From Aeriscardovia sp. (GTDB lineage: Bacteria > Actinomycetota > Actinomycetes > Actinomycetales > Bifidobacteriaceae): a DNA stretch of 64,000 nucleotides. Shown in pieces: positions 5,962-33,281 of this stretch. Numbering within the stretch: the first letter of the stretch is position 1; every line of letters starts with the position of its first letter. Location: the NCBI GenBank assembly GCA_017405305.1, contig JAFRAT010000008.1, positions 1 to 64,000 of the forward strand. Reading direction: 5' to 3'. A program made the position numbers and the translations under genes. The notes under the pieces are model-generated. The model saw only the letters and a program-made list of their open reading frames with translations. It ran no database searches and was not told where the DNA came from.

Positions 5962-5991
5962 TTGCTATGGATCCGAAGGCCCTGGTAGGAT
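5962..5991 (+). promoter_or_regulatory. Possible promoter of the surface-protein gene
   Basis: TTGCTA at 5962-5967 and TAGGAT at 5986-5991 are separated by 18 bases. TGG precedes the second hexamer, giving an extended -10 element. Transcription would start near 5998, leaving a short leader made largely of the G10 tract. The assignment is from consensus only. Confidence 0.35.
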
Positions 5992-6007
5992 TGGCGCCAT
6001 CACCAAC

Positions 6008-6017
6008 GGGGGGGGGG
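6008..6017 (+). repeat. Poly-G tract of ten bases upstream of the surface-protein start
   Basis: Ten consecutive G at 6008-6017 end two bases before the TTG start codon at 6020, where a ribosome binding site would lie. Homopolymers of this length slip during replication. A change in length would alter spacing of the leader, and eleven G would also place ATG 5967 in frame with the protein. Confidence 0.85.
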
Positions 6018-6019
6018 TC

Positions 6020-8236
6020 TTGAAGTCTTTCGTTGAAAAATCTTTTGTTTCGGTAGCAGCGCTGGCCGTCATGGCGCTGGTTTGCCTCGTTTTCGCCGCC
6101 GCCGGTTCCCCGGTGAGGGCCTACGCGTCGGAATCGGAGACGGCCGGGACTGACATCTCATCCCTGGGGTCAGCTGTCATTCTCTCCATCACTGACGGGT
6201 CAGGGAACGTGTTCACCGGCATCAACACGGAGGGAGAAACGGTCGGCACGGAAAGCCCGAACGGAGACCAGCCGGACAGCCTCTCCCTGCGGATCACCTT
6301 CGACTCCGGGGATACTTTCAAACCCGGCGAGAAAATCGTCGTGCCGATCACGAACGGCGCGCATCAGCCGTTCTACCAGTCTTCCATCACAGCGCCGTCA
6401 TACGTCTCGCTGCCGGACGGGACGCACCTTTTCTCGGCGACGTCCCGACTGGAAGGGGACGCGGCGACTGACACGGAATACCCCGAACTGATTCTGACCG
6501 CGCTCCCTGCGATCGCGTCGATGAGCGACGTCACGACGGTGACGGTGAAGTGCGCCGGTAGTCTTATGCGCGCGAATGTCAGGTCTGATTTGGTCAGCTC
6601 CACGAAGAGCACGTTCACGACGACGGGCAACACGTACACGATCACGAACAAAGCGTTCGATTTGGCCGCTTGCTTCTCAAGCAACCTTAACAAAGTCTTC
6701 ATGAAAACGGAGCATTCGCTGGGCGGAGGAGCCAGCATGTCGATCGGTTACGACGCGCGCTGCATCATCAACCAAGCGCTGAAAACAGGCGATAAGAACC
6801 CTGTCGCCCATGCCAGCCTGTCCGAACCCATCATCGTCTGGCAGCATCTCGCCGGGTCGTCGCCGTTCACGATCAACCACGCGGCTTCGACGACCGGCAT
6901 ACAAGGCGTCGTCAACTGGGTTTCGTCGCAAGCCGGATACATCTCAGGGAAACAGGCATATTCGGAGACGAACACGTCCTGGCAGTCCGGAAGCGGCATC
7001 GCGTCCTTCTCTGCAGCGCAATCCACGCTCCGAGGGCATGTCGGCGAGACGATCGTGCAGGCCGACGGCTCCGGCGGATACTACGTGGCGTCGAACATCG
7101 GCGCGCCAGGGGACCAGCCGTCCAACGACCTCGACACGATGGAACCGTACGCGTCCAACAACACAGGGATGTCCTCCATCGTCAGCAAACTGAAAGGGAT
7201 GGGATTGGACTATCCGTCCAGATGGACGCAAAGGGTCTTCGTGCAGTTCACGGACGATCCCGACATCTCGCAATCGGTGTCGGACCAATGGGAGATAGGC
7301 CCGGCAACCGCGGATAGCAGCTCTGCTTACAACGGCAGTATCATCAATCCCGCGATGTCCGGGACCGCGACGCTGACGAGCCAGAACGTGTTCGGACAGA
7401 CGAACGGCAAGCAATACGCCGCCTTGCATTACGACGCGAACGGCGGAAACGGGACCATGGGCGACGTCATCGTCATCGCCGGTTCGTCCGTGTCTCTCGA
7501 GCAGAACGGGTTCACCCGCCACGGGTACACGTTCACCGGATGGAACACGGAAGCCGACGGGAGCGGCACCTCCTACCAACCCGGGGCAAGCATCACTCTG
7601 AAGAGCGGCGTGACAGTCGTTTACGCGCAATGGGAGAGGAACCCAGAGGAGCAGGTCATCTACGAGGGGAACGGCGCGACGTCCGGATCAACACCAACCC
7701 AGAACCAAACGGAAGGCCTGTCCGTGTCTCTCGAGCAGAACGGGTTCACCCGCCCCGGGTACACGTTCACCGGATGGAACACGGAAGCCGACGGGAGCGG
7801 CACCTCCTACCAACCCAACGACTCATACACGATCCCCGGTCATACGACGTACTTGTACGCGCAATGGAAACGTGACGAAGGAACAATCGTCTATAACGCG
7901 AACGGCGGAAGCGGCACGATGGCAAGCCAGAGCGGCGGCGTTGGTTCGTCCGTGCCTCTTGAGCAGAACGGGTTCACCCGCCCCGGGTACACGTTCACCG
8001 GGTGGAACACGGAAGCCGACGGGAGCGGCACCTCCTACCAACCCGGAGCAAGCATCACCATCATCGATGGAACGCGGACGCTGTACGCGCAATGGGTCAT
8101 GTCGGTCAATTCCCTTCCGATGACCGGCGGCCGCGGTTCTCTCGCTCCGATCATGGTCGGGTTCATTGTTTCCTGCGCAGCGATCGCTGTGGCCGCGGCA
8201 GCAGCTTGGAGGAAACGAAGCGAAGAATCGGAATGA
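6020..8236 (+). CDS. LPXTG-anchored surface protein with InlB B-repeats
   Basis: A 738-residue exported, wall-anchored protein. Residues 1-35 form a signal peptide (basic start, hydrophobic ALAVMALVCLVFAAAG, then a small-residue cleavage region). About 430 residues of unrecognised ectodomain follow. Three Listeria-Bacteroides (InlB B / Flg_new) repeats lie at residues 471-538, 548-616 and 625-692, each with GYTFTGWNTEADGSG and ending in YAQW. The tail has LPMTGG at 699-704, a hydrophobic helix and a KRSEESE end, which is the sortase signal. The proposed start is TTG 6020, chosen because the signal peptide begins there. Its only ribosome-binding candidate is the G10 tract. Probable role is adhesion, by inference. 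Expression may be phase variable. Confidence 0.85.
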   Translation: MKSFVEKSFVSVAALAVMALVCLVFAAAGSPVRAYASESETAGTDISSLGSAVILSITDGSGNVFTGINTEGETVGTESPNGDQPDSLSLRITFDSGDTFKPGEKIVVPITNGAHQPFYQSSITAPSYVSLPDGTHLFSATSRLEGDAATDTEYPELILTALPAIASMSDVTTVTVKCAGSLMRANVRSDLVSSTKSTFTTTGNTYTITNKAFDLAACFSSNLNKVFMKTEHSLGGGASMSIGYDARCIINQALKTGDKNPVAHASLSEPIIVWQHLAGSSPFTINHAASTTGIQGVVNWVSSQAGYISGKQAYSETNTSWQSGSGIASFSAAQSTLRGHVGETIVQADGSGGYYVASNIGAPGDQPSNDLDTMEPYASNNTGMSSIVSKLKGMGLDYPSRWTQRVFVQFTDDPDISQSVSDQWEIGPATADSSSAYNGSIINPAMSGTATLTSQNVFGQTNGKQYAALHYDANGGNGTMGDVIVIAGSSVSLEQNGFTRHGYTFTGWNTEADGSGTSYQPGASITLKSGVTVVYAQWERNPEEQVIYEGNGATSGSTPTQNQTEGLSVSLEQNGFTRPGYTFTGWNTEADGSGTSYQPNDSYTIPGHTTYLYAQWKRDEGTIVYNANGGSGTMASQSGGVGSSVPLEQNGFTRPGYTFTGWNTEADGSGTSYQPGASITIIDGTRTLYAQWVMSVNSLPMTGGRGSLAPIMVGFIVSCAAIAVAAAAAWRKRSEESE
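7430..8095 (+). repeat. Three InlB-type repeat units with near-identical DNA
   Basis: Units span 7430-7633, 7661-7867 and 7892-8095. Within each, roughly 85 bases covering EQNGFTR..GYTFTGWNTEADGSGTSYQP (about 7498-7580, 7731-7816 and 7960-8045) are almost identical at DNA level, while the flanks diverge. Such sequence identity permits unit gain, loss or conversion by recombination. Confidence 0.85.
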
Positions 8237-31048: not shown

Positions 31049-31117
31049 GTGGCCAGCTGCTTTCCGTCGGCGGTACTATCGGAAGGGACCCGTGATGATG
31101 GCGGAATGGAGGCAAGC

Positions 31118-33281
31118 ATGGCGGATGACGCTGACACGGCGCAAGCGCTCATGGATAGGGCTGTCGCGGATGGGGATCCGCGGCTGGCCGAGGCTATCGG
31201 AAGGTTCGCGCGTGCGAGAGAATACGGTCTGGTTTTCGAGCATAACAGGCCGGAGGCGATGCGCTTGTACGGCAAACCGATCAAGCCGGGCGACACAGTG
31301 AATGTTCTGCCCGAACGCGGGAAGAGAGGGGAGGCCGGGAACCGGGTTCCCTGGCTTGTCGAAAACATCGACAAAGGAACCGCCATGCTCCGGCCTGTCG
31401 GCCGCGCCCAGGATTCCACGGGGGGGGGGTCGTACTGTTGGTCTCTCCGATTTGGTGGCGGTCTGCGAACCCGGGGAGCCTGTCTACCCGGGGTTGAGGG
31501 AAACCGGCCGTGTCGAACGAGGCGGCGGCAGTCTCGGGAACCCGGGCGGCAAACCGTATCACGTGGTCATCAACGCCGAAAACTATCACGCGCTTGAAGC
31601 CCTAGAGTTCTGCTATGCGGGCCGAGTGGACTGCGTTTACATCGACCCGCCGTACAACACAGGAGCCAAGGACTGGAAGTACAACAACGATTACGTTGGC
31701 AAGACCGACGCGTACCGTCACAGCAAGTGGCTCGCCTGGATGGAACGGCGTCTCAAGCTCGCGAAAAAGCTTTTGAACCCGGATAACTCCGTGCTCGTTT
31801 GCACTATCGACGAGAAAGAATACCTGCGCCTAGGCCTGCTGTTGGAGCAAACATTCCCCGAAGCACGCATGCAAATGGTGAGCAGCATCATCAGCCGCAA
31901 AGGATCATCTCGAGGAGACGAATTCTACCGCACCAACGAATACCTGTATTTCATAATGCTGGGTGATGCTCAACCGATCGCACTGGAACTATCCGGCGAA
32001 TGGCTCGGCGTCAGCGAACGGAAAACCACAAGAACAGGTCTCCAGTGGACTAGCCTGATGCGATCCGGTGCCGGCAGCGCGCGGCAGGACAGGCCTCGTC
32101 TGTTCTATCCGATATACGTGTCCGATGACGAGCCGCGGATCGTCTCCGCTGGCCCCTCCCTGGCGCAAGACGCTGATTATCATACGATTCCCGATATGCC
32201 CGGATGTCATACGCTGTGGCCCATTCATTCCGATGGTTCGGAAGGGCGTTGGCAATTGTCGCAACCGGCTTTGGAAAAAGCGTGTGCTTCCGGATTCGTC
32301 AAACTCGGGAAAACGAACGCTCACGGCGGAATGGCTGTTTCCTTCCTTAGGAAAGGAGAAAGGGAGAAGATCGAGAAAGGCTTGTTCCCGATTACCGGGC
32401 ATCGCTCCGACGGTTCGATCATCGTTGACGACTCCGCATACAGGCCGAAGTTTGTCCCGGGGACGCAATGGAATATCACCAGCCACGACGCTTCGGCGCA
32501 CGGATCGACTCTGCTGGGAAACCTGCTTGGCGGCAAGCGTTTTCCTTACCCGAAGTCCCTGTATGCTGTCGAGGATACGCTTCGTTTCTTCATCGGCGGC
32601 AAACCGGATGCGCTGGTTCTTGATTTCTTCGCCGGTTCCGGCACGACAGCGCACGCGGTCATGCGCCTCAATCATCAAGACGGGGGACGCAGGATCTCCA
32701 TCAGCGTCACGAACAACGAGGTGTCCGCCGCCGAGGAACGGGAATTGACGGCAGCCGGATTGCGCCAGGGGGACGCCGGCTGGGAGAAACATGGAATCTG
32801 CCGTCACGTGACCATACCGCGCATCCGCGCGGCCATCACCGGAAGAACCCCGCAAAACCAGCCTATTAAAGGCAACTACCGGTTCACCGACCCGTTCCCC
32901 ATGGCCGACGGGTTCAAGGAGAACGCCGTGTTCTTCGACCTGACATACCAGGACCCGTATCAAGTGGAACTGAGACGCGATTTCCAGGCGATCGCGCCCC
33001 TCCTGTGGATGCGCGCCGGATGCCGCGGCCCGATCATCCGCAAGGAGAACGACACATACGCGATCGCCGACACATACGCCGTCCTGTTCCATTGGTCCGC
33101 CGTCAACGCTTTCATCAAGCGACTGGAAGAACAACCGGAAGCCAGGACCGTGTACGTGGTGACAGACGACCCGACGCAATACACGCGGCTCTGCGGAATG
33201 CTCCCGGACCGTGACGTGATCCGACTGTACAGGTCGTACCTGGAATCGTTCAAAATCGCAAGCGAAGGGGCGGTGGACTAA
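31118..33281 (+). CDS. mod: Type III-like DNA methyltransferase (Mod), frameshifted at a G10 tract
   Basis: A beta-class adenine methyltransferase, the Mod subunit of a Type III-like system. ATG 31118 has GGAGG five bases upstream. The first frame covers AREYGLVFEHNRPEAMRLYGKPIKPGDTVNV and runs into ten G at 31420-31429, then ends out of frame at 31597. The second frame continues with TVGLSDLVAVCEPGEPVYPGL, then DPPYNTG (Asp176 in the joined numbering), YNNDYV, and FFAGSGTT (from Phe504). One fewer G (nine), or two more (twelve), joins both into 720 residues. As written the gene is off. This is probably true phase variation, but sequencing error in the homopolymer cannot be excluded. The stop overlaps the res start. 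Confidence 0.9.
31420..31429 (+). repeat. Poly-G tract of ten bases inside mod
   Basis: Ten consecutive G interrupt the mod reading frame after codon 100. Frame arithmetic shows nine G gives ...DSTGGGRTVGLSDL, the expected continuous product, whereas ten G gives ...DSTGGGSYCWSL and an early stop at 31597. Confidence 0.92.

Follow-up and report, generated by a model that had tools for sequence, protein, structure and literature searches.

The G10 tract and the start of the surface-protein gene

Within the window, the first 64,000 nucleotides of an Aeriscardovia sp. contig (JAFRAT010000008.1, forward strand), an uninterrupted run of ten G residues stands directly before a gene for a sortase-anchored surface protein, in the place where a ribosome binding site would be expected. 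This raises the question of whether the run is a length-variable control element and, if so, at which step of expression it acts. The preliminary description had placed the run two bases ahead of the TTG start of an LPXTG protein gene, and reading of the window bears this out: G10 occupies 6008–6017 and is followed by TC and then by TTG at 6020, which opens an ORF reaching 8236 (738 aa).

6008–6017, + strand: G10 homopolymer in the probable 5′ leader, 2 nt before the likely start codon, in Shine–Dalgarno position; same length in the sibling contig L083
6020–8236, + strand: LPMTG-anchored surface protein of 738 aa with a likely TTG start, signal peptide, repeats and LPMTGG tail; ortholog in G001

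The protein begins with a Sec-type signal peptide, MKSFVEKSFVSVAALAVMALVCLVFAAAGSPVRAYA (judged by eye), contains three Flg_new/InlB-type repeats (PF09479, E 1.5e-34, with matches to TIGR02543 as well), and ends in LPMTGG, a membrane span and a positively charged KRS tail, the motif being intact by sequence. With signal peptide, repeats and anchor with tail all present, it was assigned to the LPXTG proteins with InlB-B/Flg_new repeats, its score against the TIGR01167 LPXTG model (12.8) lying below the cut-off of 15.9. The N-terminal region (approximately aa 41–460) holds no named domain and was not found in the other genus or family genomes searched; an AlphaFold prediction of the region, made without relatives, gave a pLDDT of 32 and was uninformative. 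A mevalonate-pathway gene cluster (operon) lies upstream of the gene. No sortase is found near it (C10:6–10 kb), the two sortases of the genome being at C14:48165 and C18:4128; the gene stands alone and does not head a pilus operon with a dedicated sortase.

TTG 6020 is the likely start of the protein, because the signal peptide is complete from there and the G001 ortholog (L002, 62% aa) has its ATG at the corresponding position, preceded by a GGGAG Shine–Dalgarno sequence. This ortholog is 41% GC and carries no G tract. Read backwards from TTG 6020, the gene's frame stays open across the tract as far as 5816, and no ATG, GTG or TTG occurs in that open frame upstream of the tract. The first in-frame ATG (6071) was rejected as the start codon, because the signal peptide would then lose its charged beginning. 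Initiation at TTG 6020 would place the tract in the 5′ leader, where it could serve as the Shine–Dalgarno sequence.

Long G tracts in the genome

Runs of G or C of at least 9 nt number 21 in the whole 1.1-Mb genome. Extrapolation from runs of 5 nt at a ratio of ~0.13 per added base gave an expectation of ~0.2 such runs. In a 236-kb sample the spectrum was bimodal (819, 108, 7, 5, 6, 9, 7, 4 and 1 runs for lengths of 4, 5, 6, 7, 8, 9, 10, 11 and 12 nt, respectively); this sample holds all tracts of at least 8 nt but not all short runs, which makes the true contrast a little less marked. Given the excess over expectation and the bimodal spectrum, the long G tracts, that at 6008 included, are not due to chance, and the G10 is a slippable, over-represented homopolymer of the kind that marks a contingency locus. 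Other genomes of the family hold 1 to 69 runs of at least 9 nt each, which makes the feature one of several lineages and not of this genome alone. Two family members, G027 and G016, are even richer, with 69 and 45 G runs of at least 9 nt in about 2 Mb.

All tracts of at least 8 nt in the genome were read in place, and the long ones were found mainly in defence and surface genes.

31420–31429, + strand: the window's other G10, which lies within a gene for an N6_N4 DNA methylase and breaks its frame
L071 4110–4120 (G000:C11:192609–192619): G11 in an MmeI-type gene
L062 4089–4097 (G000:C3:26088–26096): G9 in an ISP-type restriction enzyme gene
L072 4188–4196 (G000:C11:214687–214695): tract in an Abi_2-type gene
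L078 7117–7127 (G000:C18): G11 in the leader of a SpaH-type pilin gene

In the MmeI-type (type IIL) restriction-modification gene, G11 separates the N-terminal/helicase-spacer part from the methylase/TRD domains exactly; the frame of the ISP-type gene is broken by G9 near its start, and the Abi_2 gene is split by C9 (G9 on the other strand). The methylase gene of the window is coding on both sides of its tract in different frames (N-terminal part 31094–31417, methylase part from 31430) and in the sister species G002 its frame is likewise broken, by a tract of other length; on its reading frames it is likely a phase-variable methyltransferase. The SpaH-type LPXTG pilin gene, which lies beside a sortase, has G11 in its leader, an HSDR_N/RAMA gene is preceded by C11 at 15 nt, and a small DUF6290-like gene carries G8-CC-ATG (L078 2790–2797, G000:C18), its tract lying 2 nt ahead of the ATG as at the surface-protein gene. 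The earlier proposal of a hypermutable-type G tract that takes the ribosome-binding-site position ahead of a sortase-anchored protein and lies outside its coding sequence is upheld, in a genome rich in similar tracts at genes of phase-variable type.

The longest tract of the genome, G12 (L081 3845–3856, G000:C20:69344–69355), lies after an inverted repeat and before a Mem_trans membrane transport gene. At the contig edge, in positions 1–101 of the window, a ~36-nt repeat, CCAGTCTATCAAAGAGGATGGACGCTAATTATCAGC, occurs twice around a spacer of ~30 nt, resembling the end of a CRISPR-like array.

Tract length in related assemblies

Most comparable tracts are of other length, or absent, in G002. The methylase tract is G10TC in the present genome (G000) and G9C in G002, the ISP tract G9 and G7, the tract in the Abi region G9 and G5, and the HSDR leader tract G11 and G6, respectively; the pilin leader has G11 in G000 and no tract (interrupted) in G002, and an MFS leader tract (L076) is G9 in both. 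In a sibling contig (L083/L089), G9 is found (L089 1500) at the place where the window has G6 (187–192). Judged from these differences between assemblies, tract length is labile in this lineage; the tract at 6008 itself is G10 in both available alleles (window and L083), with no length variation between them.

The second allele lies on contig L083 (JAFRJC010000145.1) of a MAG from goat jejunum that bears the label Eggerthellaceae; it has 98% nucleotide identity over 6.2 kb. The contig is probably mis-binned, since the RGIG2516 bin holds only that contig of interest and few G runs. A search for other alleles found no homology to the 5′ part of the gene in G001 or G002; G002 is syntenic downstream of the gene (93% nt), and its contig breaks inside the gene, with the 5′ part missing. 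Between 5955 and 6007, a region chosen for comparison after it had been seen, the window and L083 differ at 6 of 53 sites, compared with about 2% elsewhere (p about 9e-4). None of the six differences touches TTGCTA, TGGTAGGAT, the tract or TCTTG.

An assembly is a consensus, tract lengths in assemblies are unreliable, and short-read assemblies miscount G tracts (PMC9187656), so that the observed length might be an assembly or sequencing artefact with nothing behind it beyond a G-rich leader. We regard this as very improbable: the same G10 was recovered from a related strain that was assembled independently, and the excess of G tracts is both genome-wide and locus-specific.

Reading frames upstream of the tract

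The preliminary description had also pointed out that an upstream ATG would come into frame with the signal peptide if the tract had eleven G residues.

5967–6023, + strand: short ORF of 18 codons (ATG...TGA) upstream, which G11 would join to the gene; probably unused

By sequence the frame relation is correct, and at G10 this ORF ends at TGA 6021–6023, which overlaps TTG 6020. Its use as a fusion is unlikely, because in L083 the frame from the same ATG (ATG TAC CCG AAG GCC CTG GTA GGA TGA) ends before the tract while the tract stays G10, and fusion at G11 was discarded as the main model for this reason. ATG 5967 has no Shine–Dalgarno sequence and, if the promoter predicted below is right, lies upstream of the transcript.

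More generally, translation might start somewhere upstream, with the tract inside the coding sequence and its length setting the frame, as in the B. breve pili, where such a layout is established. The ON state would then be G11 or G8 in the window (from ATG 5967 or TTG 5991) and G10 in L083 (from ATG AGC GCC ATC ACC AGC GGG...). In keeping with this, an ATG is in frame at G10 in L083, 18 nt before the tract, ATG 5967 and TTG 5991 of the window both fuse to the gene at G11, and a coding-like codon score continues upstream of the tract. Against it, the two siblings do not share a frame for the upstream starts, which all lack a Shine–Dalgarno sequence, and indels of 1 and 4 nt upstream break frame conservation; as the frame from ATG 5967 ends early in L083 and a different ATG is in frame there, the upstream start codons are not conserved. 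The in-frame ATG of L083 overlaps the candidate −10 (TAGGAT), and in G002 a comparable ATG upstream of the pilin gene is out of frame with it. A start at TTG 6020 already yields the whole signal peptide, and the G001 ortholog starts there with its own Shine–Dalgarno sequence. The L083 stop and the ortholog-supported start at TTG 6020 argue that the tract is not intragenic as in a B. breve-type frame switch, and we consider upstream initiation distinctly unlikely.

Predicted Shine–Dalgarno pairing and folding of the leader

Predicted pairing of the tract with an actinobacterial anti-Shine–Dalgarno sequence, assumed from general knowledge as the 16S was not found in this assembly, was −14.4 kcal/mol, compared with a median of −7.0 over 101 genes, placing it among the strongest 1%. 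For G9 to G12, predicted pairing ranged from −13.9 to −14.5 kcal/mol (a spread of 0.6) and the opening cost from 8.7 to 8.9; pairing is near-equal over this range because any G register can pair with the anti-Shine–Dalgarno sequence. The leader may in addition fold into a hairpin.

6004–6036, + strand: possible leader hairpin (predicted fold) in which CAAC and the first G residues (6004–6013) pair with TCTTTCGTTG (6027–6036)

The loop would hold the remaining tract and TTG 6020, and tract length has almost no influence on the predicted fold; its arms, CAACGGGGGG with TCTTTCGTTG, are predicted to be as length-insensitive as the pairing. The suggestion in the preliminary description that length changes would alter initiation by way of Shine–Dalgarno spacing therefore finds no support in these predictions, and a spacing switch of this type was rejected on the flat effect from G9 to G12.

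A simpler possibility is that the tract is an overgrown Shine–Dalgarno sequence, in which slippage occurs, lengths of about 8 or more are equivalent and no phenotype follows. The flat predicted pairing and opening cost would fit, as would the G8-CC-ATG arrangement at another gene (L078:2790) and the finding of G10 in both known alleles. Long G tracts are nevertheless kept mainly in defence and surface genes, and even a slight change can have an effect, as espR shows (PMC11898584). On balance we think a tract without phenotype rather unlikely, while noting that one G more or less brings only a small predicted change in folding and Shine–Dalgarno pairing, which counts against a role in tuning expression.

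A candidate promoter upstream of the tract

5962–5967, + strand: candidate −35, TTGCTA, 18 nt before the −10; unchanged in L083
5986–5991, + strand: candidate −10, TAGGAT, with a TGG extension at 5983–5985; also at the pilin gene, hexamer unchanged in L083

The candidate promoter, TTGCTA-N18-TAGGAT, ends 16 nt upstream of the tract; a simple scanner with a stricter 9-of-12 rule returned no sigma-70 site. Control through promoter spacing, also raised in the preliminary description, does not agree with this arrangement, as the tract is not between −35 and −10. A tract within a −35/−10 spacer, of the porA or PPA1880 type, was likewise rejected in view of the candidate promoter, there being no fitting −10-like hexamer downstream of the tract.

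At both tract-bearing LPXTG genes an extended −10, TGnTAGnAT (search pattern TGnTAnnnT), stands exactly 16 nt before the tract. In the pilin leader this is TGATAGCAT, 16 nt before G11, and the G002 counterpart keeps TGGTAGAAT though it has no tract. No such box was found within 80 nt of any other tract in this genome. The pilin start (MKNIVRH, with a strong Shine–Dalgarno sequence) lies ~130 nt past its tract and the start of the surface protein only 2 nt past; with equal box-to-tract spacing and such different start distances, the coordinate shared by the two genes would be the promoter and not the start codon. Across 189 family genomes, TGnTAGnAT-N16-G8 gave 4 matches (2 of them in this genome) compared with 14 for the reversed control, so there is no family-wide enrichment, and the fixed spacing, seen in two cases, hints at an effect close to where transcription begins and is a lead, not a result. 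That a G tract 9–10 nt past the transcription start and 16 nt from an extended −10 tunes sortase-anchored proteins of this lineage at promoter escape or early elongation is put forward as a speculation, and an unlikely one. If true, the layout would be distinct from frame switching and from −35/−10 spacer switching, and a real fixed spacing would point to a little-studied control point.

Discussion

We lean, with modest confidence, towards the G10 being a contingency-type homopolymer of the leader whose slippage tunes expression at initiation and does not switch frame; its probable role is that of a bet-hedging tuner of expression, of a type that related bacteria are already known to have. The G10, one of about 21 long tracts, would lie in the 5′ leader of a stand-alone gene for a sortase-anchored InlB-repeat protein, translation would start from TTG 6020, and the tract would double as the Shine–Dalgarno sequence. 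Replication slippage is expected to shift tract length within the population, and length may then tune initiation, either through the first transcribed bases beside the extended −10 or through ribosome access to the leader. With an apparently untranslated tract, a simple gene, and both ribosome binding site and promoter adjacent, the locus offers a clean case for separating an effect on the start of transcription from one on the start of translation.

Among known systems, the B. breve analogy of the preliminary description holds in part: the phasome and the protein class fit, but the position does not, the tract there being inside the coding sequence (PMC9187656). In B. breve UCC2003 pili (bbr_0113 and bbr_1889), an intragenic G tract acts as a switch with slippage in the population, and other tracts, within genes as well as in promoter spacers, are mentioned by the authors (PMC9187656). 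In both cases a gene for a sortase-anchored protein has G10–G11 close to its 5′ end. The B. breve tract links two ORFs at the head of a pilus operon that includes a sortase, whereas the present tract is most likely untranslated and has no adjacent sortase.

In Gardnerella, many variable G/C tracts occur upstream of InlB-B-repeat/LPXTG genes and in methyltransferases, about 70% of tracts lie within 300 bp upstream of ORFs, slipped-strand mispairing has been proposed, and length variation was shown for one gene (PMC11287997). Long G/C tracts beside InlB B-repeat, LPXTG surface proteins are common to both (PMC11287997), in a different organism and gene.

The espR gene of Mycobacterium tuberculosis, in which a length change of a poly-G in the mRNA leader alters translation (PMC11898584), resembles the present case in having a leader poly-G that changes length without a change of frame. 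Its leader, however, is longer, and the tract, placed at the 5′ end, acts by way of folding across the ribosome binding site; here the tract occupies that site and the predicted fold is length-insensitive. In Treponema pallidum, poly-G length in the promoters of tprL and tprE/G/J sets reporter expression (PMC7864442). There too a surface-protein gene has a poly-G near its transcription start, on the upstream side of the mapped site, in contrast to the position 9–10 nt downstream that is predicted here.

In P. acnes, tracts occur at adhesin and autolysin genes, in the 5′ UTR, within the gene or at the promoter (PMC3224659, PMC4746626), and tract lengths followed clades, suggesting slow drift over active switching (PMC4746626). 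PPA1880 and PPA2127 of Cutibacterium (Propionibacterium) acnes share with the present locus 5′ G/C tracts at surface genes and the same ambiguity between promoter and N terminus (PMC3224659, PMC4746626); the tract of PPA1880 was proposed in the −35/−10 spacer and that of PPA2127 in the coding sequence, and the present tract fits neither. The locus adds a gut-derived actinobacterium to the bacteria with slippage-prone G tracts across surface and defence genes, and its G10 joins a known kind of tract in a position that is unusual but not unique.
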